From positions 11,289,403-11,353,402 of the forward strand of contig OY855914.1 of the NCBI GenBank assembly GCA_963693305.1: a DNA stretch of 64,000 nt. Direction: 5' to 3'. Source of the stretch: Meandrina meandrites. Taxonomy: Eukaryota; Cnidaria; Anthozoa; Scleractinia; Meandrinidae. Below are positions 1-57,500 of this stretch, piece by piece. The stretch's first letter is position 1; every line of letters begins with the position of its first letter. The notes beneath the pieces were generated by a model, which searched no databases, was not told the DNA's origin, and saw only the letters and a list, made by a program, of their open reading frames with translations. Made by a program: the position numbers and the translations under genes.

Positions 1-230
1 GCTCAAAACTGAGCTCGAAAAATTTCGCTTGAAAAAATGCTGAATAAATCAAATGAATATTAAATTTGGATAATACATTTGGATATTACATCGAAAAATG
101 AGCTCTAAAAAATTTAGACTGAAAATTTAGCTTAAAAGCTTGCGCTAAAAATTTAGCTCTAAAAATTTAGCCTGAAAAATATGCTGGATAAAAGTGTTGA
201 AAAATATGTTGAATGAAAGTATTGAAGCCA
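1..230. repeat. Degenerate AT-rich tandem repeat
   Basis: The first 230 bases are built of loosely repeated phrases of the type GCTCTAAAAATTTAGC and CTGAAAAATATGCTG, each varying slightly. No reading frame is present. Such arrays occur in intergenic or terminal parts of AT-rich viral elements, but the role here is unknown. Confidence 0.5.
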
Positions 231-248
231 AAGCGTAGCTAGATTTTA

Positions 249-415
249 GGCCATTCGGCACTGGAAGATAAGTTAAACTTAGTTTAACTTTCTGAAGCGG
301 GGGATGGAATGGCCGTTAAGAAATCACAGACCCGACTGGTGGGTAAGTTTGCTTTTATAAAATTTTCACTTTATTAAAAGTGAAAAGATTAAAAAAGTAA
401 ACCGGAAGGGTCTGT
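249..415. other. Strongly structured non-coding segment (candidate structured RNA)
   Basis: Four complementary pairings are stacked in 167 bases. GGCCATTC (249-256) pairs with GAATGGCC (307-314) and encloses a 9-bp hairpin (270-278 with 282-290). ACAGACCC (326-333) pairs with GGGTCTGT (408-415) and encloses a perfect 10-bp hairpin, TTTTCACTTT (363-372) with AAAGTGAAAA (377-386), loop ATTA. Perfect nested stems in such AT-rich sequence are unlikely to be chance, and the segment is locally more GC-rich than its surroundings. The strand is undetermined. The layout (long-range pairing closing a hairpin, next to a second such domain) would suit a ribozyme, intron core or viral non-coding RNA, but I could not match it to a named class. 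Confidence 0.45.
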
Positions 416-520
416 TATTTACTGTATTACAAAAATGTTTTCAAAAAATTGTATTGTAAAATATTTTTCTATACTATTTTTTAAAAAAATTATGAATAAA
501 AATGTTATTAAAACTTTGTT

Positions 521-1144
521 ACAATAATATCATACTAATCAAATATATGCTATTGTAGAAGCCGTTGAATAGCAATAATATCATCATTCAAAGCATGAAC
601 ACAACGATTAAATTTAAAGCTGTATTACCCCCTGGAATATAAGTATTGTAATATTAAATATCAACTAAAAATTGATACTAAATATTATTACCAAAAATTA
701 TATCATCTAATTTTTACAATAATATAATACTAATATCATACTAATCAAATATATGCTATTGCAGGAGTCTAACAATAGCAATAATATCATCATTCAAAGC
801 ATGAACACAACGATTAAATTTAAAGCTGTATTACCCCCTTAAAATCAAGAATGAAAAAAATAATATTTACAATATTAATAACTCTGGCCTGGAAAAAGTA
901 ATAATAGTAACGACTTAGGAAAGGATATAATTAGTAAAAAGGGTTAAATCTAAAAAATGATAATCAGGCCTAAATAAAATACGAAGTTAAATGATGTTTG
1001 AATTTATAATTCAAACACAAATAAACTAATAATATAATAATATCAAACTTATCAAATATATGCAATTGTACAAGCTTTACAATAGCATAAAGATGGTTAT
1101 TATAAGCATGAGTAAGATCATAAATTTTAAAGCAAGGTTACCCC
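521..1144. repeat. Three dispersed ~110-bp repeats, each with a small hairpin
   Basis: Copies lie at about 521-632, 732-838 and 1036-1144. The first two are nearly identical (shared phrases CATACTAATCAAATATATGC, CAAAGCATGAACACAACG and a terminal TATTACCCC); the third is diverged but keeps ATCAAATATATGCAATTG and GGTTACCCC. Each holds an inverted repeat around the same spot: in copy 2, TGCTATTG (754-761) pairs with CAATAGCA (773-780); copy 1 pairs GCTATT with AATAGC. The spacing sequence between the arms differs between copies while arms are kept, which suggests selection on the stem. They precede the 3' ends of the minus-strand genes, so they could be terminators, small RNAs or replication-origin repeats. 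Confidence 0.6.
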
Positions 1145-1159
1145 TTGAATACAAGTTTT

Positions 1160-1708
1160 TTAATCAGAATAATTATTAGAATCATTATCAGAATCAGAAT
1201 CAGAATCAGAGCTATCATCACATCGTTCATAATTTAAAATATCATGAATATGTTGATTATATTTTTTTATATCATCTTTTATTTTTGTTTGTTCATAAGC
1301 TTCATCTTCTTCAATATGGATTGCTTCTTCATAGTCATTTTTAAAATTATGTTTTATAATATCTGACTTATAAAGCTTTAAAGATTCCAATATAAATTTT
1401 GAATAACTATATTGAATTGGATATTCATCTTCATTATTCAAATTAATATAAAGAGTCATCATATTTTGAAATGGATATATACGAGGTTGATTAAGTTGAA
1501 CAATATCATATACATCACAGTTGATATCACACGCATATCTGTTAAAAAAGGGATGCATGAAGAATATATGTTGATTGTTATATCTAATTAATGGAGTTCT
1601 AGATATAACCAATTCAATAAGATCACTATCATCTTTAATAATGTTATATTTTAAATCTTTTATTGATGTGAATTTATATAATTTTGTTGGTTTTATTTTT
1701 TTAGTCAT
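1160..1708 (-). CDS. Unknown protein with acidic Asp/Ser-rich tail (virus-like element)
   Basis: A 182-residue intronless ORF that I do not recognise. The N terminus is basic (MTKKIKPTK). The central part is mixed, with aromatic-rich stretches and no membrane segment. The last 25 residues are almost wholly Asp, Ser and Asn (SSDSDSDSDNDSNN), made by a GATTCT-like repeat, giving a flexible, strongly acidic tail of the kind seen in DNA-mimic, histone-binding or polymerase-associated proteins; that functional reading is inference only. The ATG at 1706-1708 follows an AT-rich leader (coding strand ATATAAATATAT directly before it), and the gene lies 28 bases downstream of the GTPase gene on the same strand. 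Base use matches the neighbouring viral genes. Confidence 0.6.
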   Translation of the reverse strand: MTKKIKPTKLYKFTSIKDLKYNIIKDDSDLIELVISRTPLIRYNNQHIFFMHPFFNRYACDINCDVYDIVQLNQPRIYPFQNMMTLYINLNNEDEYPIQYSYSKFILESLKLYKSDIIKHNFKNDYEEAIHIEEDEAYEQTKIKDDIKKYNQHIHDILNYERCDDSSDSDSDSDNDSNNYSD

Positions 1709-1736
1709 ATATATTTATATTAGAAAATATTTTTTA

Positions 1737-2639
1737 TTAAAATAATAAACCATATGCTAAAATATTATTACCATCTAGTAATATTACAGACTGATTTAAA
1801 TGATCAGTTGTATTTATATTAATGACACAATTTATGAATGTATCAGTTGCATTTTTTTTTGTAATGAAATTGTAATTTCCATTTTTCACATCAATAAATT
1901 CAATATCATATGTTTTATTTAGTGAACATAATATGCATTTATAACCAGTTGTGACTAAATTTGTTATATTATAAAAAGATAATTTGATGTTTGATATATT
2001 ATTTAATGGTTTAATTGATGTTGTTTCTCTTCTATGAATTTTTATGTTTTTTATTACATCAAACAATGAGTAATTTACTATATTGCTGTCATTTTTAGAT
2101 ATATTTAGGTTACATTTTGCTGATATTGGAATGAATATTATTTTTTCGAAATGTTGATTATTTAATGATTTTTTTACTTTATTGACGATATTATCATAGG
2201 TATTATTATGATTGATATACTCTGATTTATTTATACAAACAATTAACTGTTTTATTCCATTTACACGTGCTAATAATGTATAATCATAACCTTTTTTAAT
2301 GTTTTTATCAGTTTCATAAGGTTTAGCTGATATTAAAAGCAATGCTATATCAGCTATTGAAGAATTTATTATTATTTCTTTTAATAAATCTTTATGACCA
2401 GGATTATTGAATATTATGTATTCATTATTGTCTATATTGAATTTTTCTTGTGTAGAATTAATTGTTATTCCTTTTGATTGTTCATTATAATCAGTATCAA
2501 CAATATTTGATAGCCAATTTTTTGATTTATTAATAGATTGATTTATTTCTCTATTACATATAACACCAGTATTTATTAAAATGCGTGATATTAAACAGCT
2601 TTTACCTACATCAACGTCTCCTATGCATGTTATAATCAT
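1737..2639 (-). CDS. eEF1A/EF-Tu-like GTPase lacking domain II (virus-like element)
   Basis: The 300-residue product begins at once with a translation-factor G domain: G1 GDVDVGKSCL (7-16), G2 GITI (57-60), G3 NNPGH (78-82), G4 NKSE (137-140) and G5 SAK (173-175). Family members carry DxPGH and NKxD, so the G3 Asp is Asn and the G4 Asp is Glu; the catalytic-type His (82) is kept. After the G domain (about 1-205) the chain passes directly to a segment like eEF1A domain III (about 218-300: TTGYKCIL, the FINCVINI strand, final NNILAYGLLF matching the usual tVAvGvi ending). Normal eEF1A has about 460 residues, and domain II, which holds the aminoacyl end of tRNA, seems absent. Coding-strand TATATATAAG lies one base before the ATG. 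It may bind but hydrolyse GTP poorly; whether it acts in translation or as a decoy is unknown. Confidence 0.75.
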   Translation of the reverse strand: MIITCIGDVDVGKSCLISRILINTGVICNREINQSINKSKNWLSNIVDTDYNEQSKGITINSTQEKFNIDNNEYIIFNNPGHKDLLKEIIINSSIADIALLLISAKPYETDKNIKKGYDYTLLARVNGIKQLIVCINKSEYINHNNTYDNIVNKVKKSLNNQHFEKIIFIPISAKCNLNISKNDSNIVNYSLFDVIKNIKIHRRETTSIKPLNNISNIKLSFYNITNLVTTGYKCILCSLNKTYDIEFIDVKNGNYNFITKKNATDTFINCVININTTDHLNQSVILLDGNNILAYGLLF

Positions 2640-2717
2640 TCTTATATATAATATATGATATATTTTATTTTTTATTTATTTTGTGATGACCATAAGCATA
2701 GCTTGTTATACCATCAT

Positions 2718-5700
2718 TTAACGTTTGTCATCATAGCATGATAATGACACTTTGTTTATTTCATAGCTACCTAATTGATGATTAATGCTTCTGATAGTTT
2801 TCATTTTATGATGTAATTGTTGATTATTAAATAATGTTTCTTTATAATTACGATGATTGAGGTCGTTTTTAATTACGTTTTTCTTTATACCCTTTGCTGT
2901 TTTATTTTCATTATCATCATCTTTAATGTATGAGTACATTTTTGATCTTAAGCCAATGAATTCAGTTATTGGAATACCATGAGTTTCATCTTTAAATTTA
3001 CCAATAACTTTTTTATTAAAATCATCAAAATATTTGGAGTTTTTATCATATTCACTAAAATCAAATTTATCCCTATCATTAAAAAAGTCTTTATATACAT
3101 CATTAGCTTCTATCTCATAACAGAGGCTATCAGTATCAGTGAATAATAATTTAGATTTATTTCTATACTTGTTCTTAATGTAGTTATAATGGAAATCATA
3201 CATCAGAGTCTTACTTAAATCAAGGATAGACATTCCTACATATGATGGTTTATTTAATGTTAGTGTTTCTTTTATTTTATGAACAGCAACTAGATTTTCA
3301 TTGAATATTTTACTACTTACATATGTTGGTTTAGAAGTCATCTTCAATAATTTTTTTTCATCTGTAATCAATCTAACATCAACTCTTTTTCGAAGATTTT
3401 CCATTGTTTTACTATATACTGAATTATTCATTAATTTGAAAAAATCTTTTTCAAAACTATTTTTTGCTTGAGTCCTTTTCTGAGTATTGAAGTCAATATA
3501 CTGTTTTAACCATGGAGATTGATTGAACTCAAGTGCTCTATAAACTTTTATTATTTTTAAACCGAGATCAAGGTATAATTGTAAATTTCTATAGTGTAGG
3601 ACATACTTTTCTTTGTTATTTAATGTAGGTATTAATTTATGAACTAACCCTGTGGATATATTGTATTTATCTGCGATAGATTTGCAATAATTAGATAGCA
3701 TGTCTCTTGATACTTTTACCTTTTCAGATGCTAAAGGATAATCATTATGAATGTTATGCAACTCTTTTGGGTATTCTAAATCAACTTCTAGTATCAAACC
3801 TTTTTTTACTTTTTTCATCATACTTTGCTAAATTGGTTTCATCAATTTGCTTCTGTGTTAACCATTTAAATTTTCCAGTAGGTAAGTACTGACTCATAGC
3901 CCATCCATATAAATTATTTGCATCAAGATAAATGATATACTTTGATGATAATGTTTCATCATAATCTTTCATGTATTTATTATTTGCTTTACTATGACGA
4001 TTTGCAATATAAGATATGCCTCCTCTCATTCCTTTTTCAATAAATTGGTACATATCTATATCAGTAATTAGTTCGAGTTTAATATTAGACATTTTTAGCA
4101 TACTATCCCATGATAATCCAGGACTGCTAAAATAGTGACATGGATCTAGTTTATAATAATGTATGCATGTTTTTCTAAAGTTTTCAAATACATCAGCTAA
4201 TAGAAGTATATCAGACTTTAAATAAAGATCATGATATTCACCCATTGATGAAATATTGAATGTTTTCCAAACATTTTTAGCATGTTTATAATCTTCATTA
4301 CTGATATGTTCATTATTCAATGTACTGTAAAAATCATCTTTTGTTGGTAATTTTAAATCATCGAATTTATCAAAGCTGTCCATATAATCATATGGATATA
4401 TGCCTTTTTTTTTTCATTAATTCAAATTTTTTATTTTTGAATTCTTTGTTTGTATATTTAAAAGCTTCATTAGGTAAATTACTGACTAATTTATTCAAAC
4501 TAGAGTTCATAAATTGAAAACTATCAATAAAAGTTAAATGATTACCTAGCATGAAAGCCATATATTTTTCCATATTATTAGGTATAGCATTAATAGTCAT
4601 TTTTTTAACATCACCTTTATTATTTTTGTATGTATAGTTATTAACAATAGCACCAATCTCTTGCATAATGAAATGGCTATCATACCCTCGAAGATTATGA
4701 AATATTACAGGAATTTTTATTTTATCAGGATCTACTTGTAGTTTCAATTTGCATTCTTGATGTGTTGAGCCAATGTATTTAGTAGTAATAGGACAATGAT
4801 ATCTTACTTTAATATCTTTCTCAGTATATTGTTTATTACATATATGACATACTGTCGTATTTTTGAATTCATTTTTATCATCATCAGTCATCTCTAATTC
4901 TTTATTCAAATTCATTTTAATAATTTTTTTGCAATAATCTACTTCTTCAAGCATCTTTTCCATAAATTTATAAACAGCTTTTTCACCTCTATATATTTTT
5001 ATTGGTTTTGAATAATTATCATCATAACAACAGACAACTTTATATCCATAACCACAGTCTGTATGCTTTTGATATGCTTCAGTATATGATTTTTCATCAT
5101 AAGGTTTGCAGCCTTGAACTTTTTCTAAAATGCTTTCAAAATCTGCATATATAACGAACGGAACTTTTTGTTGTTTATAAAAATTTTCAAATTTCAATGT
5201 GTTGTTGTCTTTTGTTGGCATTTTAATAGCTTGTACTCCATTTACTTGTATGCAGTTTAATTTGTGATCATTTAGCACTCTTTCTGAGCTGAAACATTGA
5301 ATACAATGCATGCAAAAATACTTTCTTTCCTTATGTTTTGTTTGATTATACATGAACTTATTGAAATCTTTTATTAGTACGTAATGCTTGTTTTCATCTT
5401 TTGTTATTAATAATAAATTCATGCAATTATCATATTTTTCTTTCGATACATAGATTGGGTATGTTTGCATTTTTTCATAACTGAAAACGTTGATATTGAT
5501 CTCATTTTGCTTTTCAATCTTATTATAATGTTTATTAGAAACAGGAAATTCAATATTATTATAATTTAATTTGTTAATATATTCTTTGTCTGATTTTTTT
5601 ATTCTTTCTTGATTTTTAATTGTTGGATTTAAGTGTCTGATATGACACCATAAAAACACTTATTATCATTATTTTTAAGGTTAATTAAACCTTTTACACT

Positions 5701-6480
5701 ATTTTGAAGTTCCTTAGGTAGTTTTATATATGAAGATCCATTCATCGGTTTATATTTAACAATATTTAAATAATGATTATCAACTGATTTTATAGTCCAA
5801 CCTGATCCTTCAGATACCCATGAAGCTATAAAATTTAATATTTGTTGTTCAGATAAATTTAATGATTCAGGAATATCAAGATCATTTATTATTGTTTGAG
5901 CTTTGCTATTGAAATATGCAGTTTTATCAATTATCTTATTATTAGTGACTTTTCTAAATGTTACTTTTAAAGTCATGAAGAATTTTAACCCTTTCATTTT
6001 ATTTAATAATGTATTGATGTGATGCTTGACAGCTAATTTTGTGTTTTGTAATTGCTCAAGTGGGTTTTTGTTATTATTTATAATAATTTCATAGGATTTT
6101 GTATAACCTTTCAAAGCTTTATCAGTTTCTTTTATTTGAGTTGAATTTATGTCATCTTCTACGACGTCTTTTTTGGGTTTATCTTCTACGACGTCTTTTT
6201 TGGGTTTATCTTCTATGACGTCTTTTTTGGGTTTATCTTCTACGACGTCTTTTTTTGGTTCATCAATTATTTCCATGACTTCATCATGTGATTTATTTTG
6301 TAACAATATTATTTCAATTAGTTCATTTTGAGTTAAATCTTGTAAATTCAATTGATTCATTTCAAAGAAATCATCTTTTGTTTTGATTAAATCAATTAGT
6401 TCCTGTTTTGTCTTTTTTTTCAAAATGAAAATTCGGATTAATTCTTTTTGTGACAAATTTTTCAAATTCACTTGATTCAT
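2718..6480 (-). pseudogene. Protein-primed-type family B DNA polymerase, frameshifted (Polinton/adintovirus type)
   Basis: The gene is spread over four same-strand ORFs in different frames: 6480-5629, 5659-4388, 4383-3781 and 3821-2718. In order it shows two SAP-like helix repeats at the N terminus, four copies of a KPKKDVVED linker repeat (6156-6262), a C-x2-C zinc-like cluster, exonuclease motifs YADFES (near 5140), FHNLRGYDSHF (near 4690) and FIDSFQF (near 4530), polymerase motif A DANNLYGWAMSQ (near 3910), motif B NNSVYSKTMEN (near 3410) and motif C FTDTDSL (near 3130). The total of about 1250 codons fits full length for the family. Breaks: one base lost at the 5-base run 5652-5656, one gained at the 10-base run 4405-4414, one gained at the 7-base run 3801-3807, and a shift near 2722 that removes the last residues. 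Motif B has Ser where the family has an almost invariant Gly. It would replicate the element; as read it is inactive. Confidence 0.85.
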
Positions 6481-6580
6481 AATAATATTACTATAGATAA
6501 TATTTTATATCTTTATATATTTTTAAAAATAGTATAAAAATATTTTTAAAAATATTTATATACTTGAATTTTATATTATA

Positions 6581-6793
6581 CTATATGTATTTATTTGAAT
6601 TTAAAATAATTTTTTCATGATTACGCTGGTGTTTTTTAGTTTTCAAATGAGACCATTTACCAGCTAATTTATAATCCTTTTCATTGGCACAAATGTTACA
6701 ATACCATGGTTTATTCAACATATACTTCGTTTTACTAATTTTTATTGCTATTTGTCTCTCTTCATCACTTGAATGTTTCTGATATCTTGACAT
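6581..6793 (-). CDS. Small single C2H2 zinc-finger protein (virus-like element)
   Basis: A 70-residue basic protein with one zinc finger of the spacing C-x2-C (WYCNICANE) then H-x5-H (WSHLKTKKH), close to the matrin/U1-type C2H2 pattern used for RNA or DNA binding. The remainder is Lys-rich. It starts at 6791-6793 and is divergent from the VLTF3-like gene, sharing a 53-base AT-rich intergenic space; it sits just upstream of the polymerase gene on the same strand. Small finger proteins of this sort are common in large and mid-size DNA viruses of eukaryotes; a role in transcription or genome binding is inference. Confidence 0.65.
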   Translation of the reverse strand: MSRYQKHSSDEERQIAIKISKTKYMLNKPWYCNICANEKDYKLAGKWSHLKTKKHQRNHEKIILNSNKYI

Positions 6794-6846
6794 TTGATTA
6801 TATAATATTATTTAAGATAATATTTTCTTATGTATTTTATATAAAG
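6794..6846. promoter_or_regulatory. Divergent AT-rich promoter region
   Basis: Only 53 bases separate the start codons of the zinc-finger gene (minus) and the VLTF3-like gene (plus), so both promoters must lie here or in the coding sequence. The plus-strand start is directly preceded by TTTTATATAAAG; the minus-strand start by ATTATATAATC. Similar TATATAAG or ATATAAG strings sit within about 15 bases of the starts of the GTPase gene (2639) and the membrane-protein gene (7867). Confidence 0.4.
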
Positions 6847-7407
6847 ATGGTTTGTGATTCACAAATTCATAATGAATTAAAAATTTTAAAAGAACCTATA
6901 TGCCCTTTCTGCGAGAATATTTTAATAGAAGGTGATAAAATGGTCGAGCTATGCTGTAGTAATCAGAATATGGCGAATAAAAACGGTATGAATGTTTGTC
7001 TAAATTGCGGTTTAGTTCATGGTTGTGAATATGTTATAGGTTACCTTGATTTTTATGAGAATATGTATAAAATACATAAAAAATCAATATATAAACGTAA
7101 ATATCATATCGATAATACGTTGAATTCTATTTGCTATGAGAATAAAATCACATTGACTTATAAACAAAGGGATAAAATTTATAAGACATTCGAAATAATT
7201 GGATCTGTTATTCCTTCAGTTAATAAACTCCGAAGACGAATTATCAGCACTAAATATATCCTCAGGCAGTTATTTAAATTGCTTGATATTCCATTTGAAT
7301 GTATAAAGATTACTAAATCGAGAAAAACGCTTGAATTTTATAATCGATATTGGGCGAAGATTTTAGAATTGAAATTTGATAGTATCATACACATTATCAG
7401 ACAGTGA
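6847..7407 (+). CDS. VLTF3-like late transcription factor (zinc ribbon)
   Basis: The ATG at 6847 is chosen because it directly follows TTTTATATAAAG and because the upstream in-frame extension runs back over the neighbouring divergent gene. The product is 186 residues. It shows a cysteine-rich N terminus (CPFC, ELCCS, then VCLNCGLVHG), a typical zinc-ribbon/VLTF3 pattern, followed by IYKRKYH, which matches the family's conserved Y-x-R-x-x-H block, and a helical C-terminal part ending in a Trp-containing segment (YNRYWAKILEL). In poxviruses and other nucleocytoviruses VLTF3 activates late-gene promoters. It is the main plus-strand gene of the element and overlaps the 3' end of the convergent membrane-protein gene by 11 bases. 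Identification rests on motif pattern only, but the cysteine and RKYH blocks together are distinctive. Confidence 0.7.
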   Translation: MVCDSQIHNELKILKEPICPFCENILIEGDKMVELCCSNQNMANKNGMNVCLNCGLVHGCEYVIGYLDFYENMYKIHKKSIYKRKYHIDNTLNSICYENKITLTYKQRDKIYKTFEIIGSVIPSVNKLRRRIISTKYILRQLFKLLDIPFECIKITKSRKTLEFYNRYWAKILELKFDSIIHIIRQ

Positions 7408-7867
7408 ATTGTTTGTTATATCTGTTAACATATTCATCTATAGTTGGACATTGATCAATAACAATATCGTCAAGCACTTTTAGATCGGTTAGAAAAGAAT
7501 TTTCATCAGATTGTAAGCCTCTCAAGAAGCATTTTATCTGTATACAAACTTTCTCATAACTTGTGTATGCAAATTTGCATTTATTAACTTTGTCAGAAAT
7601 GTTACTCTTTGTTATATAACCATGAATCAAAACACCCAATCCTGTTAAACAACCTATAACAATAGGATTAAGAGTAATACTACCAACAACAGAACCTATA
7701 ACAGTCAAGCTAATGGAGGACATCTGCAGAGATAGATAAATACGTTTCAATTTCTTATACTTCCATTTATAACATGTTTGTAATCGGTGGTAATTATTAT
7801 ACAATTCCTTCAATTCTTTTACTCTATCTTCTGATAATTTGTTGGATATATGATTAAAATTCATCAT
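7397..7867 (-). CDS. Two-helix membrane protein, SLATT-like (virus-like element)
   Basis: The 156-residue product has an N-terminal amphipathic, basic coiled helix (about 10-45, with YKWKYKKLKRIY just before the membrane), two adjacent hydrophobic helices (about 48-66, SSISLTVIGSVVGSITL, and 69-86, IVIGCLTGLGVLIHG) joined by a short NP turn, then a cytosolic helical tail (about 95-156). Helix, two close membrane spans, helix is the architecture of the SLATT family, whose bacterial members are pore-forming effectors in nucleotide-signalling defence. The match is one of layout, not of a diagnostic motif, so holin-like or viral membrane roles are equally open. Coding-strand ATATAAGAAG lies just upstream of the start. 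It ends 11 bases inside the convergent VLTF3-like gene. Confidence 0.6.
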   Translation of the reverse strand: MMNFNHISNKLSEDRVKELKELYNNYHRLQTCYKWKYKKLKRIYLSLQMSSISLTVIGSVVGSITLNPIVIGCLTGLGVLIHGYITKSNISDKVNKCKFAYTSYEKVCIQIKCFLRGLQSDENSFLTDLKVLDDIVIDQCPTIDEYVNRYNKQFTV

Positions 7868-7956
7868 ATGTCTTCTTATATGTTATATAATTATACAATG
7901 TTTTATTTCTATTTTTAAATCTGCAGTTTTCATATATATATTGTTTATACAGTAAA

Positions 7957-9102
7957 TTATATAAAATACACTCCATTTCCTTTTTCAAGAAAACAAATTT
8001 TATTAAATTCCTTTGAAGAAAAACTGTAAGCATTGGTTGATACTCCTATTCGTTTTATTTTATAAGGCAATTCTAGTATTATGTTTCTTGTTGTAACATC
8101 TCTTATATTGACGGTTTTATCTAAATAAGCTCCATTTACCAAACCATATCTTACATTGTTGTTATTTTTCATGATCCACATAAAAAGGTTTTTATTTTGA
8201 TATTGACTTAACACACTTAATTGATGATTATTATCGTTTTGATTGTCGATGATGAGTTTTTGGTTATTTATGCTATAACGAGGATCACTATAAATGAATT
8301 TTTTGTCATTAGTAATTCCTCCGAAACCAACAAGATTTTTTGTTGCATCTGTAAATGTTGTGTTGTGTTTAAAGCTGATAAAAATTGTATATTTATTTGT
8401 ACTAATTGTTTTTCTTAATGAAATCACAGATCCATTTAAAACAGTTCCTAACTGTTTATCAAACAATGATAAATCGAAATCATCTTTCATATATTCAGTT
8501 GTAATATAACCATTATCGTTTTGACATTTTACATATTTTACTTCAGCACCGAATGTATCATCTACTATAAAATTATTTGCATCAGTTATATCAAAAAAAG
8601 TTTCAAATATTTCTGTGTAATAACTTTTTGGTTGTAATGGCTTTATTAAAATTCCGATAGAATCATTAATATCTTTTTTTGAAGTTGATATAGCTGTATT
8701 CAATTGTTTCAAATTTATAGCCCCATAGTCATCATTTGTGTTATCTCCTAATCCAACGATTTTATTTCCCTGCATGTTAATTTCTTCATTAAAATAGACG
8801 AATCCATTTTCAGTAAAATATAAAGCATCATATAAAGCAGGATTAATATCTGATTGAATACTTACAACACCATAAATGATGAAATAAGTTTGAAATTTGG
8901 ATGGATATGATACATCAGCATTTAATTTGATTTCAATATCTAGGAATAAGTAATTGTTATAAGCATTTTGACTTTTGGTGAACTGACAAATCAATCTTGA
9001 ATACTTACGTGAAAATAATGTTTTTTTCTTAACGTTATGAATTGTTTCAATGGAAGAAACACCATTCAAGAATATGCTTTCTACATCGGAGCTTATCCAC
9101 AT
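7957..9102 (-). CDS. Tail-fibre/attachment-like protein, probably truncated at its 5' end
   Basis: The first ATG gives 381 residues. About one third in, NMQGNKIVGLGDNTNDDYGA followed by INLKQLN matches the D-M-x-G-x-K-I-x-x-L module of phage and viral fibre proteins, in which short beta units lead into a trimeric shaft. After it comes a coil-like stretch and a beta-rich C-terminal half with a jelly-roll or LamG-like feel, the likely receptor-binding head. The reading frame stays open for about 85 bases upstream of this ATG until a stop near 9190, encoding plausible protein, and no TATATAAG motif precedes the ATG; this suggests that the true N terminus was lost where the element meets host-like DNA. 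Function in surface attachment is inferred from the fibre module. Confidence 0.65.
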   Translation of the reverse strand: MWISSDVESIFLNGVSSIETIHNVKKKTLFSRKYSRLICQFTKSQNAYNNYLFLDIEIKLNADVSYPSKFQTYFIIYGVVSIQSDINPALYDALYFTENGFVYFNEEINMQGNKIVGLGDNTNDDYGAINLKQLNTAISTSKKDINDSIGILIKPLQPKSYYTEIFETFFDITDANNFIVDDTFGAEVKYVKCQNDNGYITTEYMKDDFDLSLFDKQLGTVLNGSVISLRKTISTNKYTIFISFKHNTTFTDATKNLVGFGGITNDKKFIYSDPRYSINNQKLIIDNQNDNNHQLSVLSQYQNKNLFMWIMKNNNNVRYGLVNGAYLDKTVNIRDVTTRNIILELPYKIKRIGVSTNAYSFSSKEFNKICFLEKGNGVYFI

Positions 9103-9387
9103 CAATTCAAAACATAAAGTATAATCATCAAAGCCCCCTGTGAATTGGATTAATCCAGATTCGATGCATAAATTAATTGTTAACAGGAATCAATGAATTG
9201 GGTGAATTTTAGGTCACCCGCTAAACCTCCTGGAATGACTACGTCATCACCATGAGCTAAAAAGGAAAAAACTTTTCTAAAGAGTCGGCCAGGCTAACTA
9301 CCTGTGTACGATCATTAATATAAAATCATTTCAACAAATATATATTTACATAACTTGGCTGTTTAGAAAAAAAACTTTACTTTTCAG

Positions 9388-34136: not shown

Positions 34137-34847
34137 CAGTTCCGATGCAGAAAATATTAAGCGCAGATCTACTATTAGAATTGCAGGTTACATCGAACTG
34201 TATGAGGTGTGCTACCCGCCAGTTCCGATGGAGAAAATATTAAGCGCTGCTGTATCATTAGAATTGCAGGTTACATCGAACTATATGAGGTGTGCCACCC
34301 GCCAGTTTCGATGGAGAAAATATTAAGCGCTGCTGTATCATAAAAATCGCAGGTTACATCGAACTGTATGAGGTGTGCCACCCGCCAGCTCAGATGGAGA
34401 AAATATTAAGCGCAGCTCTACTATTAGAATTGCAGGTTACATCGAACTGTATGAGGTGTGCCACCCGCCAGTTCAGATGGAGAAAATATTAAGCGCTGCT
34501 GTATCATTAGAATTGCAGGTTACATCGAACTGTATGAGGTGTGCCACCCGCCAGCTCAGATGGAGAAAATATTAAGCGCTGCTGTATCATTAGAATTGCA
34601 GGTTACATCGAACTGTATGAGGTGTGCCACCCGCCAGCTCAGATGGAGAAAATATTAAGCGCAGCTCTACTATTAGAATTGCAGGTTACATCGAACTGTA
34701 TGAGGTGTGCCACCCGCCAGTTTCGATGGAGAAAATATTAAGCGCTGCTGTATCATTAGAATTGCAGGTTACATCGAACTGTATGAGGTGTGCTACCCGC
34801 CAGCTCAGATGGAGAAAATATTAAGCGCTGCTGTGTCATTAGAATTG
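34137..34847. repeat. 83-bp minisatellite, about 8.6 copies
   Basis: Units start at 34137 and every 83 bases after that to 34801. Each reads CAG-y-y-C-x-GATGGAGAAAATATTAAGCGC..., then GAATTGCAGGTTACATCGAA and GAGGTGTGCCACCCGC. Two variants of the middle occur: GCAGCTCTACTATT (units 1, 4, 7) and GCTGCTGTATCATT (the others), so variant units recur every third copy. Since 83 is not a multiple of three, the short ORFs across it are not real genes. Confidence 0.95.
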
Positions 34848-37800
34848 CGCTGCGCTCACTCGTGAAATAGTTTTCAACACTCGAAGAGAAATTTCGTATC
34901 TCCGCGCGGCCATGTAATATCCTCTATGCATGTAAACGGATTTATACATTGGAACCTTTAAATAACGCTACGGCACGTCACTGTTTCTTGGCTTTCAAAC
35001 TAAGACCGGGTTCTTCGTTAATAGAGGGAATATAATTCTCAAAACAGAGATCAACATATTAAATTTGTCTGCAAATTGGCGGGCTAAACAAGTGTTGAGA
35101 ACAACAGATTCTAAAAGTTTACCCCCTCATTAGCTCTCATTTCTACTTTATTTAAAAAACAACCCCCCCTTTTTTCATTGATCTAAACGCCCCCCCCCCC
35201 CCCCCCCCCATCCCCTTAGCCATAAATAACGAACAGTGCCTTACAGAACACGAATAGAAAGTAAATATAGCGAAATATTCTGTTTCGCAAATTTTACTGG
35301 CGCGCTCCGCGTATTAAAAACCATTAACTTAAAGGCGAAAGCTGTGTTTTTGCACAAAGATGGGACCAAATGTTAGAACCGGATGGAGCAATCACACACA
35401 CGAATTATAAATTCACTGACCTAAAATAAAGTTTGATAGACTGACTTACCTGGCGACCTCCTTATATGACTATTTAATGAATGATCCATGATGTGATAGC
35501 CCGGGCATTATTATACATGCGTTTCTTGAGTACGACTTTAAAACTGAACTAAAACAAACACAGCATTTCGACGGATTGCGCGCAGTTGAGCGCTTGCTTA
35601 GTGCTGCAGAACGAGTGTCCTCGCATCGGACAACAAAACAATTCATCTTCCCTGTACAAATGAAAGGTACGAACCATCTGTAATATGTCGAAACATTTTT
35701 AGCATTTTGAACGGCTTTCTGTATTGAAGGCGCCGGTGTCGCCGCAACTCTCGGCTGTAACTCACCATAATTTCCACTCTGCAAATCCACATGATCGTTC
35801 GATAGAACCAAGAAATGATCACCTTGCATAAAGCGAAAACTGTTGCTTAGAGCATCTTCTATCTTAAAAGGTCGAAATGCTTATGCGACATCAAAATGGC
35901 TAGAAATGATTCCTTACTAGATGAGCTTCTTCTGTCTCTCCTGAATTGCCGCTGAAGCGAATTCGCCGCGAACATTGTAATTTATTCTGCCGCCAGAATG
36001 GAAATTGATCCGCGTAACACCCTGCGTGACACTGGTGATGACAAGATGACCCAAATGCTATTGACAGATTATAACACTTTCGGTAACCACAACCTAATCT
36101 TCTTAAGAATTCAGGAACTTACAGTTGACGCCGCTTGCGTCCCCTCATGTTCGTCAATAACAAAACGTTTCAGAAAACAGCAAGGCTGGCCATTAGCTGC
36201 GATGAGGCGTTATTGTGACTCTTGAGTTTGCAGAAGACCAGGGATTGCTCTAGTGAGTATTTTTACATCCATCAATGTTGCTTGCATTCACATTTGCTTC
36301 TGACTAGTTATGGGTTCCTAGAATTGAAGAAGGCAAAACATAGTCCAGGTCAAATCTAAAATACTTTCCTACCTCTGGCAGGCTACGGAAACACTGCCAC
36401 TTGTAGGCAAGCAAAAAGTTGATATACACTTTTAGTTACTAGATTCTGTCTTATTGAAGCACTGCATACATTAATGTTTGTTATAAAGAGCTTTTTAGTT
36501 CAGCCTTTGCTATGATGATAAAAGAATCTGCGAAAATTGGACAGATATTTTAAAGGCTCGAGGAGACGCCATCGCTTTTACATAAGTTGAGTGATATGTC
36601 ATTGACTTATGATTATACGCAAAGTAGAAAGTGTATTATAATCGACGAAGACTTCCCACAATAATATACTAGTTTGCTAAGACAATACAACCTCCAAGGA
36701 TATTGAGAGTGGTTAAGATCTGGGATAAATCACGATCAACAAAATAGTCCGTTGTCACCCTTAAAGGTCCTTGTGAAGTTGTTGCGAGACTGTGACTGAT
36801 TATGAATTGTGTATGGATATTTTACGATATTGTGCGAACTTATTGATAGATTGCTATTTTCCTTGGTCATTAAATAACCTTCAATAAGGAAATTAGTAAA
36901 TTGAAGGAATCAACGTCAGTTCGTGTCGGAGGAAAATACATGCAGAACCTGCATGGTAAACAACATACATTCAGAGGGGCTATGAACATTTTAAGTTCAG
37001 ATTTGCAGTGAAATCTACCCCAATACGACTTTCTGAATTCAACTCATGCTCGTTTGTGTAAAATATTGTTTTTTTTTCTGTAATCATTGATCCGGAGCAC
37101 TTAAACTAAGACTCGGGTTTCTTGGAATCTTCAAGAGCGGTTCTCCATTTCTCCATTTCTCCATTCTGCTTTTAATGCTCTGTTTTCAAATCTCTGAAAT
37201 TCGCTGTTAGACGTTAAAACGACTGTTGCCTTAGTTTAGCTAATTTTATGCTTTGATTTTTGTAAGTACAAGGGAAAAAGCAAGAAAATATCAAACAGAC
37301 AAAATAAAAGGGCAAAGGGTACTTAGATACTTGCCATACGCAAACGCGGATTGAGACACGTTCATAGCATACGTCCTGAAGCAAGTTGATAAATGTATTT
37401 TTCGTTTCTGTTTGAATCTCGGTAGTCGTTTTTAGCAATTTGCCACTGTTGAGCGTAAAACATTGAAGCCACTCTTAGTCCTTGAACAGAAAGCTGTGAT
37501 GACAATTAAAGCGAGTTAAGATAAGATAATGATTTGTGATTCCAAGTGGATTCCCTTTTGGATGACAGTTCCTGCCATTCAAAGCAAATATGTCGGCATG
37601 CTCTACATTAATATTTTGTTTACTAGATACTCATTAATTCTCCTGTATTTCTTAAATTTAATTTAATTTGTTTCTGTTGCCATACGTTAGATTCTGTTTA
37701 CAAGAAACCCATTAATTCCCCTGTATTTTTTGACAAATATTCTATTCTAATTCTTCAGCGCAGACCATGGAAGGGTAAAGGACAAAGGCCTGTTTTCACC

Positions 37801-51500: not shown

Positions 51501-54500
51501 TCGCTTACTTCAAACGAGACTATCACTTCGATCGAAGCTTGGGAGAACAACTTGAAGTATATCCTGTCTCTCGATGCTAACTTTGCCGACTTTCTTACCG
51601 ATGGCTCGTCGTGGGGAAAGAAAACGAATGCTTCACCTCTTCGTGGTTTCTCCAATGATCCCGAATCTGTTACCGCGGCGCGAAGGAGAACAGCTGCTCA
51701 AAAGACAGCTCACTTGGAAATGATGCTCGGCCAAATAGCAAATTACGCTCCAATCGTTTCCAGGAACTCTATCGTAAAGAATTCTACTTCTATTAACAGC
51801 GTTTGGCAGACTATCCGTCAGCACTATGGCTTACAATCGACGGGTTCCCGTTTTTTTGGACCTTGCTTACATTGCTTTGAAGCCCGAACAACGTCCCGAG
51901 GACTTATTCCAATGTTTGATGGCCTTTATTGATGAAAATCTCCTCTCCGCGTCTAGCGGTATCACTCATCATGGCGAGGCTCCCGTTTCTGATGAAGAGC
52001 TCTCTCCATCTCTCGAGAATTTCATCGTCTTAACATGGCTGCGTTTGCTACATCCCAGTCCACCTCGGCTCGTAAAACAGCGTTATGGAACTGAATTGCG
52101 GAGAAGAACTCTAGCCTCTGCCAATCCCGAGATTTCTCAGGCACTCGAGTCTCTTGCCAGTGACGAGTCAAAGGTCCTACGCTCTGCACCGCCGGAACAT
52201 CGCCCGCCCATCCCTGCCCGTCGCAGACCTCCACCTAAACCGCGCGTCGTTAGGTCTTGCTGGTCGCCAGGATTTCCATTCTCATTTCCTGAGCAATTGC
52301 AAGTTTTTGCCTGAATCTGACCGCCTTTTCATGTCTCGGGCCCGTCAAGTCGCTGGTCTTGACAGTGATGAAACCTCCTATGGCTACCATGGCTACTGCT
52401 TCGACCAGTCGGACTCTCCAGCCCTTCAAGATTTCTCTGGCGTGCAGAGCTGTCCTGCTAGCATTCTCCCACCTTGGAGCATCCTGTTTCTCGTCGTGTT
52501 GACGTCTCTCAGTCTCCGTTTCTTCATGCCTTTTATCATCACCATCCTTTACGTCTCACTATTGACACTGGCGCTGAGACTGACATGATGAGAGCTTCCC
52601 TTGCTAAGCATATTGCTGCCAAGATCTCTAAAAGCTCCCAGTCCGCTTTGCAAGCTGACGGTCGTACTCCATTGTCTGTGATCGGTGAAACTCGCCTTCC
52701 CTTGGTTCGCCACGGCAGATCTCTCGCACTGGAAGCTCTCGTGGTTGAAGATCTTGATGTGCATATACTTGCCGGGACTCCCTTCATGGCTGCCAACGAC
52801 ATTGCTGTCCGTCCCGCCAAACGTGAGATCATTATTGCTGGAACTGACGTGGCTTCATATGGTTGTGTTCAAAGCCCCCAGACCCATCATGCCGTCAGGG
52901 CCTGCTATCTCATTCGTGCTCCAAGTGTGAACTGTACCGTTTGGCCTGGTGAATTTCTTGAAGTCGATGCCCCTGCGGAGTAACTTAAGGATTCTCTACT
53001 TGCCATCGAACCCCGTGTAGACTCTGTCTCCTCTGGCCACTCAAGCACGCCCACGCCTGGCCCCACCCAGACATCGTCCGTACCGTCGGTGGTAAGTTGA
53101 GGCACCTCAACGACACTGAGGAGCCCCTTCTTATACGCAAGAATGACTATTTCTGCCAGGCTCGTCTGACTGTTTCTGATCCAATCCCGGAGCCCTCTCT
53201 AGTAAATTCGTCCACGTCCCCTCACAAGACACCAGTTTCACTCCATTTCCCTGCAGAGTCCGTCCGTGTTGATCCTGATGGCCTGTTGTCGTCTTCTGAA
53301 AAAGCCTCTTTCATCTCTCTCCTGAAAGAGTTCGAGGTTGTCTTCAACCCTCGCATCCCGGGTTACAATGGAGCTGCCGGTCCGATTGAAGGTGTTGTGA
53401 ACATGGGTCCCGTCGAGCCTCCGCAGCGCAAGGGCCGTGTTCCGCAGTACTCGCGCGACCAACTCGATCTGCTCCAAAGCAAATTCGACGAGCTCGAGGC
53501 CCAGGGCATCTTCCGTCGCGTTAAGGATATAAAGGTTGTCGTTGAGTACTTAAACCATTCATTCCTGGTGAAAAAGATGAATGGCGGCTTTCGTCTGGTA
53601 ACAGCCTTTACTGACGTAGGTCGGTATAGTAAGCCTCAACCCTCGCTAATGCCGGATGTCGACTCTACTCTCCTCAAGATTGCCTGCTGGAAGTACATCA
53701 TTGTTTCCGACCTGTCTCAAGCCTTCTACCAGATCCCCCTTGCAAGGTGCTCCATGAAATATTGTGGCGTGGTAACCCTCTTCAAAGGGGTTCGCTTCTA
53801 TACCCGTTGTGCCATGGGTATCCCTGGTTCGGAGACAGCCCTGGAAGAGTTAATGTGCCGTGTCCTCGGTGACCTCCTCCAGGAAGGATGCATCGCTAAG
53901 ATAGCTGATGATCTATACTGTGGTGGGAACACTCCTCAAGAGCTCCTTTTGAACTGGCGGAGGACCCTCTCCGCTCTAGACCGTTGCAACCTTCGCCTTT
54001 CAGCCGAGAAAACCATCGTCTGTCCAGCATCCACCACTATCCTCGGCTGGATATGGTCCCAAGGTTCTATCCGCGCTTCTCCACACCGAATAGCAGCTTT
54101 GGCGTCCTGTGAGCCCCCCAAGAATGTTCGCGGTCTCCGCACTTTTATTGGTTCCTACAAAATGCTTGGCCGGGTCCTAGACGGTTGCGCCAAACTCCTT
54201 GCCCCGCTCGAGTTGCTTACAGCAGGCCGTCAATCTCAAGACTCAGTCGTTTGGTCTGATGAACTGCTCATATGTTTTCACTCTTGCCAAGAGGCCCTCG
54301 CTTCTAACAGATCCATTGTTCTCCCCAAGCCCGAGAACCAACTCTGGATCGTGACCGATGGTTCCGTCAAGATGAGCGGCCTCGGTGTCACCCTTTATGT
54401 TCTTCGTAACCAGAAACTCTACCTCGCTGGGTTGTTTAGTGCAAAGTTCAAAGAGCATCAAGCTTCCTGGTTGCCGTGTGAAATAGAGGCGTTATCCATT

Positions 54501-57500
54501 GCGGCTGCTGTTAAGAACTTTGCTCCCTATATAATACAAGCCAAGTCTAAACCTTATGTTCTGACTGATAGCAAGCCTTGCGTCCAGGCTTTTGAGAAAC
54601 TATGCCGCGGCCAGTTTTCCTCCAGCCCCCGCGTAACATCATTCCTGTCCACTGTCCACTGTCAGTCGGTACCAGGTCTCGTTGCTCCACTTAGCTGGCT
54701 CTGCTAACCTGCCATCTGATTTTGCTAGCCGAAACGCCCCAGTATGTGAAGACCCCCGCTGCCAAGTCTGCTCATTTGTCTCCGAGGCTGAAAACTTTTT
54801 TTTAAATTGTTTTTTTATTGATTTGAGTTACAAAATACAAATATTACGGTGTGGTAGGTGCTAGTGTATTAATAACAATGTGCTAAGACTTAGCTGTGCG
54901 TCCTATTTCCGTTGACGATGTACTGTCTGGTCAAGCCTCCCTGCCTTTCACAAGCCGCTCTGCCTGGCTCCAAACGCAGTTGGAATGTCCTGATCTTAGG
55001 CGAGTCCACTCTCATCTTAAGCAAGGTACACGCCCGTCGAAGAAGTTGACGAATATCAAAGACGTCAAGTGTTACCTGAACTTGGTTTCCATCTCTCGCG
55101 ACGGTCTCCTCGTCGTGAAGCGTGATGAACCTTTTGCCAAGCCCCCGCGAGTGTATTGTAATCCCTCGCCCTGTCCTAGATGGCTTCCTTTCTGCCTTAC
55201 ACGTAAAGCTCAACCATCCTTCCCGCCACCAAATGAACCTGGTTATACAGCGTTACTTCTTCGCGTTAGACCTCGACAAATCCCTGGATCGGTGCTCCCA
55301 GTGTTGCCACCTTTGCTCTTCCCTGAAGAAGTTCCCTACCAGCCTTGTCGAGCAGTCTACCTCTGACCCTCCAGATGACATCGGTATTTCCTTCGCCGCA
55401 GATATCTTAAAGCGCTACCGCCAGCTGATACTCGTCGTCCGCGAGACAGCAACTTCTTTCACTGCTTCGTGCCTCCTGGATGACGAGCGCCGTGAATCTA
55501 TCCGCTCCGGTCTCCTCCGACTGTGCCTTGAACTACGACCTCTAGCTGCCCCTCCTTCTGTCATAAGAGTGGATCCCGCTCCTGGCTTCGCTTCCCTGGC
55601 CAACGACGCAACTCTTCGGCAGTACGGCTTTGTTGTAGAGGTTGGTCGCGTTAAAAATCCTAACAAGAACCCCGTAGCAGAGAAATGCGTCGCCAAACTT
55701 GGCGATGAGCTTCTCCGCATTTGTCCTGAAGGTGGTCCGATTTCCCTACTTACCTTGGCTGTGGCGACTGCCAATCTCAATACCCGTATCCGTAACAGAG
55801 GATTGTCCGCCCGGGAGATATGGCTCCAACGTGACCAGTTCACTAACTCGCAGATTCCTTTGTCCGACCTACTTCTTCTCCAACAGCAACACTCCTTACG
55901 TCTTGAGAACCATCCTGTCAGCGAAAGATCGAAAGTCCCCGGCTGCAGTTCCCGCTCACCCACGCCTGTGCAGGTCGGCGATCTGGTATACATCACTTCC
56001 GACGCCTCTAAGACCCGCGCGCGTGATCGTTATCTCGTGGTCTCTGTTGACGGCCTCTGGTGCAACTTCCGTAAGTTTGTCGGTTCCCAGTTACGTTCCA
56101 CCTCATACTGCATCAAAATATCAGAGTGCTATCGTGTTCTGGTCCTAGCTGGTCCCTCGTGTAAATTGCCATGTCGTTACAGTGCTGTTCCCTACCCTAA
56201 CGGCCACGACGCTGAGGAGGAGCTAGCCCCTACACCAGCCTCTCAAAGTCCTCCCACAGTTTCCTCGCCTGCTCCTGAAGTGCTTTCAGCTCCACCAGTT
56301 TCTTCCCTCGTTCCTGAAGAGCTTTCCGTGCCCCCAGCTCCTCGAGCTGACACCTGCCCAGCCTCTTCGCCTGTTCCTGATGTGCATACCACTACACCTG
56401 ACCCTCAAGATAATACCGCTGACCTTGATCCGTTCGCTGATACAACTGTCTCTGAACCGTTTCCAGTTGACCCTGAACCGTTTGTGAGCCCTAGGCCACG
56501 TCGGTCTGGCCGACCATCCCGCCGCCCAGCTTATCTTCAAGACTATGTCACTTAGCTTAGCCCATTTTGTAATTATAATTCTATTAGCTCGAGGCTCATG
56601 CACCTAGTTTAATTCGCGTAATATAGCTTTGCCTCGCCCTTCGCTCGTTGTTTTCCTTATGTTGGCGGAAGGAAGAAGAAATCACGCCATAGTTCGAATA
56701 GTTTCGCTCTATTGTTGTTATTCCCACTTCGCCCATAATTAGGTCGTTACCTTAGTTACACGCTGGCTTAGCGTCGTTGTTAGTTGTACACCGGCTCTCG
56801 GTTAGTAAAGTGTTTTTGCGTACGGAGTTTCGTCTCAACTTACTGGCGTAGGGTAGAGCAAGCTTTATTCTCCTTAGAAAACAAGCAAACAAACAAAAAC
56901 TTCATCTACACAGGATAAACATGTAGCAAGTTGGATTGATAATTACTTTCTTGAATGGCCCGGTGGGGTAATTATCTGGTGGTACGCTTGGAATGGTTGT
57001 AAATTAGTAAAAAATAAGCCTGCGTGAGCATGCAAAGTTTGAGAAACGTCTTCACGTGCTGACGTAATCGCCCATAAAGCCTTAGAGAGAGAAAACGGCT
57101 CACATTATTATTTACGTTAAATTATAGGTCCTCAGAGCTCCATTTGGAAGAAAACTCTCCGTGCATTTTCGGGTGATTTCGGGAAGTGAATTTGAGCTCA
57201 ACGTTACAGATGGAAGTACACAGAACAAAACTCTACTCAGTACGATCACAGATTCCTACAATGGGAAGACAACCAAAACTGGTTCTAGTTCTGTTTTGGA
57301 ACTTTCTTTCTATACAAAAGGCAATTCCAGAGTTCCTGCTAACTTGGAGATGATTATAGTGGAAGATCAAGGTAATGGTTACCCTATACCGTCTTTAAAA
57401 GCAGGTCAAAGTTTTCAGTTACGGAAATAACTGGTCAATATAAACGTTTCTCTACTTTCCTCCAATCCAGGGATAAGAAGAAGAAGCCTGGAAAAGTCTG

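Follow-up and report, generated by a model that had tools for sequence, protein, structure and literature searches.

The window, by which we mean the whole stretch of DNA analysed here, comprises 64,000 nucleotides from the scleractinian Meandrina meandrites (contig OY855914.1, positions 11,289,403 to 11,353,402). On its minus strand, at 1737..2639, lies an open reading frame (ORF) for a translational GTPase (trGTPase) that belongs to the EF1 family (eEF1A, eRF3, Hbs1). Domain II has been lost from it, and its G domain packs onto domain III. The ORF represents one copy of a gene carried by a DNA-virus-like element, which is itself present in dozens of copies in this genome. The ORF is real and not a product of chance: 300 open codons would arise at the local base composition with a probability of 1.6e-13, and no stop-free run exceeded 147 codons when bases 1-9100 were shuffled 200 times. 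Its features are as follows.

1737..2639, minus strand: intact ORF of the two-domain EF1-family GTPase, 300 amino acids (aa); the ATG ends at 2639 and the stop codon occupies 1737-1739
2046..2639, minus strand: G domain, residues ~1-198, from the Pfam match and the structure model
2598..2621, minus strand: G1 P-loop, GDVDVGKS, residues 7-14
2463..2471, minus strand: switch I, residues 57-59, with the Mg-binding Thr59 retained
2394..2408, minus strand: G3, NNPGH, residues 78-82, with Asp replaced by Asn78 and the catalytic His retained (PGH at 80-82)
2220..2231, minus strand: G4, NKSE, residues 137-140, with Asp replaced by Glu
2118..2126, minus strand: G5, ISA, residues 172-174 (SA at 173-174)
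1998..2045, minus strand: linker, residues ~199-214, the expected site of a domain II of ~90 residues
1740..1997, minus strand: domain III, residues ~215-300

A translational GTPase reduced to a G domain and domain III

The product carries a G domain of the GTP_EFTU type that defines the trGTPase superfamily, as Pfam family PF00009 matched residues 2-191 above its cut-off (E 4.4e-25). Sequence comparison with the PDB returned archaeal EF1A as the best match (3e-21), followed by eRF3 (7e-18) and eEF1A (2e-14), and in all but one of the best 60 rows the match ended at or before residue 190. An earlier sequence-only reading of this DNA had recognised the G boxes of a translation GTPase, with Asp changed to Asn in G3, NKxD changed to NKSE in G4 and the His of the PGH motif kept; all five boxes were located and each of these details was found in the ORF, for which that reading gave no strand. 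The window GTPase lacks both canonical acids, the Asp of G3 and that of NKxD in G4.

The same reading had held that domain II is missing, and three lines of evidence bear this out. Specifically, 292 of 299 residues of the structure model aligned to EF1A residues 8..425 through the G domain and domain III, with no normal domain II between them. The top 13 Foldseek rows needed 421-438 alignment columns for 299 query residues, because one domain's worth of the target was skipped. Lastly, a hidden Markov model (HMM) of domain II was run over 1169 six-frame segments of the window, where its top score was an unconvincing 4.4 bits (E 2.3); the same HMM recovered domain II of two eRF3 proteins outside its training set at 37-40 bits. 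A neighbouring frame that provides the missing domain was thereby ruled out in every frame of the window. Against the two-domain proteins described below, the best of 110 matches to this HMM (E up to 50) scored 4.3 bits and fell within the G domain. Domain II is hence absent from a member of a superfamily whose members, according to a 2015 survey, all have the G domain and domain II in common (PMC4342817).

The C-terminal segment had likewise been described as resembling domain III, and this held up through its relatives and the structure model. A C-terminal profile of environmental relatives aligned by hhalign to domain III with a probability of 92.7 (E 4.3e-7) and to domain II with a probability of 0.3. 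The C-terminal barrel of the EF1 family thus appears to be present, by profile and by predicted fold, the assignment being weaker for the window lineage alone.

The two-domain family, its copies in the genome and their selection

A protein search gave 37 relatives, and a profile of seven of these, with the 7998 best candidates scored, gave 607 hits. Among the best 120 of the 607 hits, 114 were short proteins of 181-355 aa (P0029-P0142) and the remaining six were of at least 411 aa, with Pfam matches to domain II or III; no protein from P0001 to P0142 was longer than 360 aa. The motif counts cover 135 sequences with lengths of 290-360 aa, one of them the window GTPase. Eight sequences below 290 aa (P0016, P0018, P0021, P0025, P0027, P0028, P0071 and P0141) were left out, among which P0021 has NNSGH at G3 and P0027 has NKSK at G4. 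All 135 share the layout, with 27-39 residues between the last helix of the G domain and the first strand of domain III, and all retain the P-loop Lys, the switch I Thr and the His of PGH; the Ser of G5 is kept in 134. The acid changes are true of the window ORF but belong to one lineage only: all 23 rows of the window clade carry Asn at G3 and all 23 carry Glu at G4, whereas the 112 more distant relatives keep Asp at both sites without exception.

Scanning of the 551-Mb assembly that holds the window revealed 112 matches to the GTPase, of which 66 span at least 855 bases; 56 of these 66 are free of stop codons. In 55 stop-free copies G3 has Asn in 49 and Asp in six, G4 has Glu in 50 and Asp in five, and both acids are altered in 49. 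The catalytic His of PGH, typical of trGTPases, is present in 54 of these copies and in all 135 aligned sequences. The ratio of nonsynonymous to synonymous substitution rates (dN/dS) ranged from 0.05 to 0.37 with a median of 0.26 (155 copy pairs with dS 0.1-1.0), and for the G domain alone it was below 0.5 in 157 of 160 pairs. These values come from 55 of the 56 stop-free full-length copies, whose pairs are not independent, and the sample favours constraint because the ten copies with stops and the copy C5:487133 were left out. The GTPase gene is under purifying selection across the copies of the element.

A G-domain tree was built from 61 two-domain rows, thinned at 80% identity, and nine references. 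Eight three-domain references were separated from the two-domain clade with support of 100/96, and the environmental relatives and the window clade lay together on one side of that branch. The ninth, P0143, joined the three-domain references at 95/64 on a long branch. This 411-aa protein combines a G domain near to the two-domain family with a C-terminal domain III, and the ~100 residues between them were not recognised by the domain II HMM; the middle stretch is perhaps a decayed domain II and the protein an intermediate form. A second tree comprised 32 genome copies, 16 other two-domain proteins and three outgroup proteins, without P0143. In it, 26 Asn/Glu rows formed a clade (100/99) whose sister is the genome copy L144, which pairs a G3 Asp with a G4 Glu; the two were joined at 100/100 and all other rows were Asp/Asp. 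On the simplest reading of these residues, Asp/Asp was the starting state and the G4 Asp would have changed to Glu before the G3 Asp changed to Asn.

The sequence-only reading had known of no described viral or transposon family with this layout, a statement that calls for correction. When the window model was compared with predicted viral structures, the top matches (E 1.1e-24 to 1.4e-21) were three giant-virus proteins, A0A3G4ZN03 of Terrestrivirus (333 aa), A0A1V0SA87 of Catovirus CTV1 (345 aa) and A0A3G5A9G5 of Hyperionvirus (333 aa), each bearing the database name EF-1 alpha or GTP-binding elongation factor; the short proteins that make up 114 of the best 120 profile hits (of 607) point the same way. 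Compared by predicted models, the three are similar in size and appear to share the fold of the window GTPase from end to end (TMq 0.81-0.85, TMt 0.71-0.77), but their identity to it is 19-24%, the root-mean-square deviation is 4.2-5.5 and the viruses are much larger. The same three proteins were the best matches to the model of the Asp/Asp relative P0110 (pLDDT 87.9; E 2.0e-30 to 6.0e-26). In Brazilian cedratvirus, a 109-aa protein named EF-1 alpha (A0A2R8FFC5, in BFVD) matched domain III of P0110 with 41% identity and a 259-aa protein of the same name (A0A2R8FFA6, in BFVD) gave a weaker match to the G-domain part; together they are perhaps a split gene. Pattern scans of IMG/VR returned only bacterial CysN-type loci (L001-L005, of which L001 and L004 are one contig), an absence that says little because the scans use two to six short peptide patterns. 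A scan of prokaryote genomes gave at least 594 pattern matches and 513 relatives, of which 80 archaeal and bacterial records were kept; in these, whose ORFs were not read individually, the matched segments stop by query residue 234.

The surrounding virus-like element

The GTPase gene lies in an AT-rich remnant at the left end of the window, with the following neighbours.

1..9200, no strand assigned: AT-rich element remnant, GC 0.24-0.25 up to 8 kb, right edge approximate
1160..1708, minus strand: 182-aa ORF next to the GTPase on its downstream side; in this place L087 has a 225-aa ORF, recognised by eye as related
2718..5659, minus strand: PolB-like stretch, from motif reading, in three ORFs in different frames (2718-3821, 3781-4383 and 4388-5659)
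5629..6480, minus strand: 283-aa ORF resembling, by reading, the beginning of the PolB stretch
6844..7407, plus strand: VLTF3-like late transcription factor, 187 aa; Pfam PF04947 in homologues
7397..7867, minus strand: 156-aa ORF, weakly matched by SLATT_4 (E 1.6e-5, 24.8 bits against a cut-off of 55)
7957..9105, minus strand: C-terminal 382 residues of a larger element protein, shortened in the window and longer in other copies

The rest of the window has a GC content of 0.34-0.53, and the 8 kb to its left (L150) are not AT-rich. The earlier description of a virus-like element with VLTF3 and PolB genes stands for VLTF3 through its relatives: of 76 homologues 11 carry PF04947 (Pox_VLTF3), and of ten homologues scanned seven list it, six above the cut-off. 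The window ORF itself gave no Pfam VLTF3 match, and its closest scanned relative, P0149, is without PF04947. For PolB the description rests on motifs seen by eye, as searches with the stretch returned no hit. The remaining ORFs gave only weak Pfam, PDB and NCBIfam matches near E 0.01-1, which were set aside; SLATT proteins are known from prokaryotic defence. The larger element protein has an open frame of 755-805 aa in many other copies and, by reading, begins in L095 with a collagen-like stretch that had no database match.

Linkage across the genome was measured with one partner gene, that of the 382-aa ORF protein, with 97 of 112 GTPase matches and 103 of 108 partner matches entered (the rest being small extra pieces). 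Of the 66 full-length GTPases, 44 had a partner match within 12 kb, which in all 44 cases lay upstream on the same strand, at a spacing of 4.0-11.3 kb and mostly 5.1-7.0 kb; random placement gave a mean of 0.34 neighbours and a maximum of three in 1000 trials. Locus L087 repeats the order of the window, with the end of PolB, the GTPase and the 225-aa ORF. Ten of 28 GTPases of the window clade apparently share a contig with a VLTF3 homologue, identity of the contigs being judged from equal size, and three of these contigs measure 20, 38 and 83 kb.

With Polinton/adintovirus-like elements the window element shares a VLTF3-like gene and a large number of genomic copies, and by motif reading it may also share a PolB-like gene, for which a protein-primed polymerase would be expected. 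Neither a capsid gene nor an integrase was noticed in this copy, where no dedicated search for them was made; for the double jelly-roll capsid protein the reading covered the ORFs of the window element and of its 8-kb left flank. Cnidarian capsid genes outside the main Maverick-Polinton cluster are reported (PMC10120064). Isolated VLTF3 copies among animal genes of the anemone Exaiptasia, recorded in a 2017 survey (PMC5294986), may be the same kind of element.

Several minor features were also seen. The 283-aa ORF contains an in-frame 27-base tandem repeat in four copies at 6154-6264. Three non-coding repeats of ~125-150 bases each (500-660, 706-860 and 1013-1160) carry a run of C and a short hairpin (inverted TGCTATT/AATAGCA in two, with a single mismatch in the other); neither Rfam nor a tRNA search gave a match anywhere in the window, these repeats included. 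Adjoining the left end of the element, L150 3679-7949 is GC-richer and holds ORFs that by reading resemble a DIRS-type retroelement (reverse transcriptase and recombinase). Elsewhere in the window, 34137-34848 is a minisatellite of 8.6 copies of an 83-base unit, and long ORFs at 24967-28569 and 53097-56555 resemble, by reading, retroelements of the long interspersed and long terminal repeat types.

Proposed function and competing explanations

Profiles of the two domains were used to place the family among eEF1A, eRF3 and Hbs1. In a scored search the environmental domain III profile matched P0146, classed as eRF3-like in this analysis, at 29.9 bits, two eRF3 proteins at 17.7 and 16.3, and P0143 at 20.6; it gave no match above 5 bits to the lone eEF1A compared (P0144) or to three proteins that we take to be Hbs1-like. 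The G domain profile gave 232 bits for P0146, 217-225 for the Hbs1-like proteins, 221 for P0143, 207-212 for eRF3 and 197 for eEF1A. The label 'eEF1A-like' given by the sequence-only reading is therefore too narrow, since domain III exceeded 5 bits only with eRF3-type proteins and P0143; 'EF1-family' or 'eRF3-like' is safer because domain III leans towards eRF3 and the G domain is nearest to archaeal EF1A.

Each known relative differs from the window GTPase. The eEF1A and aEF1A proteins have domain II and hence the aminoacyl pocket, which with its domain is absent here. Hbs1 and Ski7 both retain domain II, unlike the window GTPase; Ski7 is an example of an altered active site in a three-domain protein. 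From eRF3 (Sup35), the GTPase of translation termination, it differs in having neither domain II nor the N-terminal extension and in its altered G3 and G4 acids, and what the two appear to share is the likeness of the domain III profile.

According to PMC5119991, the aminoacyl group and A76 of tRNA are bound in domain 2 and next to it, domain G and domain 2 hold the M domain of eRF1 or of Pelota between them, and His95 contacts the sarcin-ricin loop; according to PMC3950680, eRF3 domain 3 is the binding site for the eRF1 C domain, and helix 5 of the small subunit is contacted by a turn of domain 2. A protein without domain II should thus have no pocket for the CCA end, lack one wall of the cleft for the M domain of eRF1 or Pelota and make no contact with helix 5, while the retained G domain and domain III should still allow contact with the C domain of eRF1-type factors and with the sarcin-ricin loop. 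By analogy, we tentatively propose that the window GTPase is a partial mimic of eRF3/Hbs1 acting on termination or ribosome rescue during infection, to which we would give somewhat less than an even chance. Domain III would bind an eRF1- or Pelota-type partner, the protein would dock at the GTPase centre of the ribosome with its catalytic His meeting the sarcin-ricin loop, and termination or rescue would be slowed or redirected. In the window lineage the Asp of G3, a ligand of Mg2+ and water, and that of G4, which confers guanine specificity, are lost; this points to weak or slow hydrolysis, and these proteins might serve more as binding decoys than as cycling enzymes. The wider proposition, that viruses carry a widespread class of trGTPase without domain II as a minimal eRF1/Pelota-binding module, of which one lineage became in two steps (G4 Asp to Glu, G3 Asp to Asn) a probably hydrolysis-poor decoy under purifying selection, is possible and, taken whole, doubtful.

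A number of observations weigh against this proposal. Only domain III shows a clear affinity to eRF3: by the G domain profile the Hbs1-like proteins score equal to or above eRF3, and the best PDB matches of the window GTPase are archaeal EF1A. The C-terminal profile of the window lineage alone reached an hhalign probability of 40 over 35 columns, and the window ORF did not stand out with a domain III HMM from five three-domain proteins; with its own C-terminal evidence this weak, the lineage owes its domain III assignment to the relatives and the structure model. Domain III is also less constrained than the G domain, with dN/dS below 0.5 in only 158 of 201 pairs, and among the 55 copies one has Gln in place of the His and one is without the P-loop Lys. 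Binding of partner, nucleotide and ribosome is predicted by analogy, and the GTP-like arrangement of the model may be a default because AlphaFold models carry no nucleotide. The window copy itself may do nothing. Against its three nearest copies it shows 9-11 nonsynonymous and two synonymous codon changes, seven of the shared changes falling at residues 252-288, and together with its broken PolB and truncated 382-aa ORF this indicates that it is probably decaying.

Other explanations were weighed against partial mimicry. The GTPase might instead work off the ribosome, as a nucleotide-dependent switch that serves replication, transcription or assembly of the element and in which domain III is re-used for a viral partner. 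It has its place between PolB and the small ORF in the window and at L087, it is tied to element genes across the genome, the small-subunit contact of domain II is gone, and most genome copies (49 of 55) have both active-site acids altered; we nevertheless regard such a switch as rather unlikely, as the His with its known role in sarcin-ricin loop contact is kept in every aligned relative and in all but one copy, and the relatives include proteins of giant viruses, a group that encodes translation factors (PMC6582330). Less likely again is a competitor of eEF1A that binds eEF1B, the T stem of tRNA or chaperones and so lowers host elongation: the aminoacyl pocket, placed in domain 2 by PMC5119991, is absent, and the domain III profile passed over the one eEF1A compared.

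That a host gene family was domesticated from the element, for instance in defence against related viruses, would agree with the constraint on copies of which 56 of 66 are stop-free, and with a window copy whose PolB is broken and whose GTPase frame is open. It is improbable, given that 44 of 66 copies lie 4-11 kb from another element gene in fixed order and strand, that relatives occur in giant viruses and metagenomes, and that constraint is relaxed in the window copy itself. An artefact, in the form of a frameshifted, misassembled or decayed fragment of eEF1A or eRF3, might be suspected from the broken PolB stretch next to the GTPase and the shortened 382-aa ORF, and is scarcely credible: the layout is common to all 135 aligned sequences, domain II occurs in no frame, the two-domain clade stands apart from eight three-domain references (100/96) and dN/dS reveals constraint. 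The shared layout, the tree and dN/dS rule out a lone eEF1A fragment. For the family this explanation is already refuted.

No description of a two-domain trGTPase was found in the open-access literature, subscription papers lying outside the search. The word 'virus' is absent from the text of the 2015 survey cited above (PMC4342817). A 2019 giant-virus study describes eRF3-like and GTPBP1-like GTPases of Marseilleviridae and Mimiviridae, which are likewise virus-borne members of the EF1 family and act in translation; they have typical trGTPase domains, unlike the two-domain family, and a word search of that text finds neither 'domain II' nor 'domain 2' (PMC6582330). Thus the proteins are already in databases as elongation factors, and their layout, spread, selection and stepwise active-site change seem undescribed.

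Domain II has so far been treated as part of the minimal trGTPase, and here a selected and widespread family does without it. It provides a natural experiment on what a G domain and a domain III can do alone on the ribosome, and may represent a new way for a DNA virus to interfere with termination or rescue. As one genome holds Asp/Asp, Asp/Glu and Asn/Glu versions, the order and effect of the active-site changes could be measured on natural proteins. Besides the Asp/Glu intermediate L144, the M. meandrites assembly contains a separate Asp/Asp lineage (L145-L149), of which L145 groups near P0115, P0121, P0123 and P0128, proteins encoded on long contigs.
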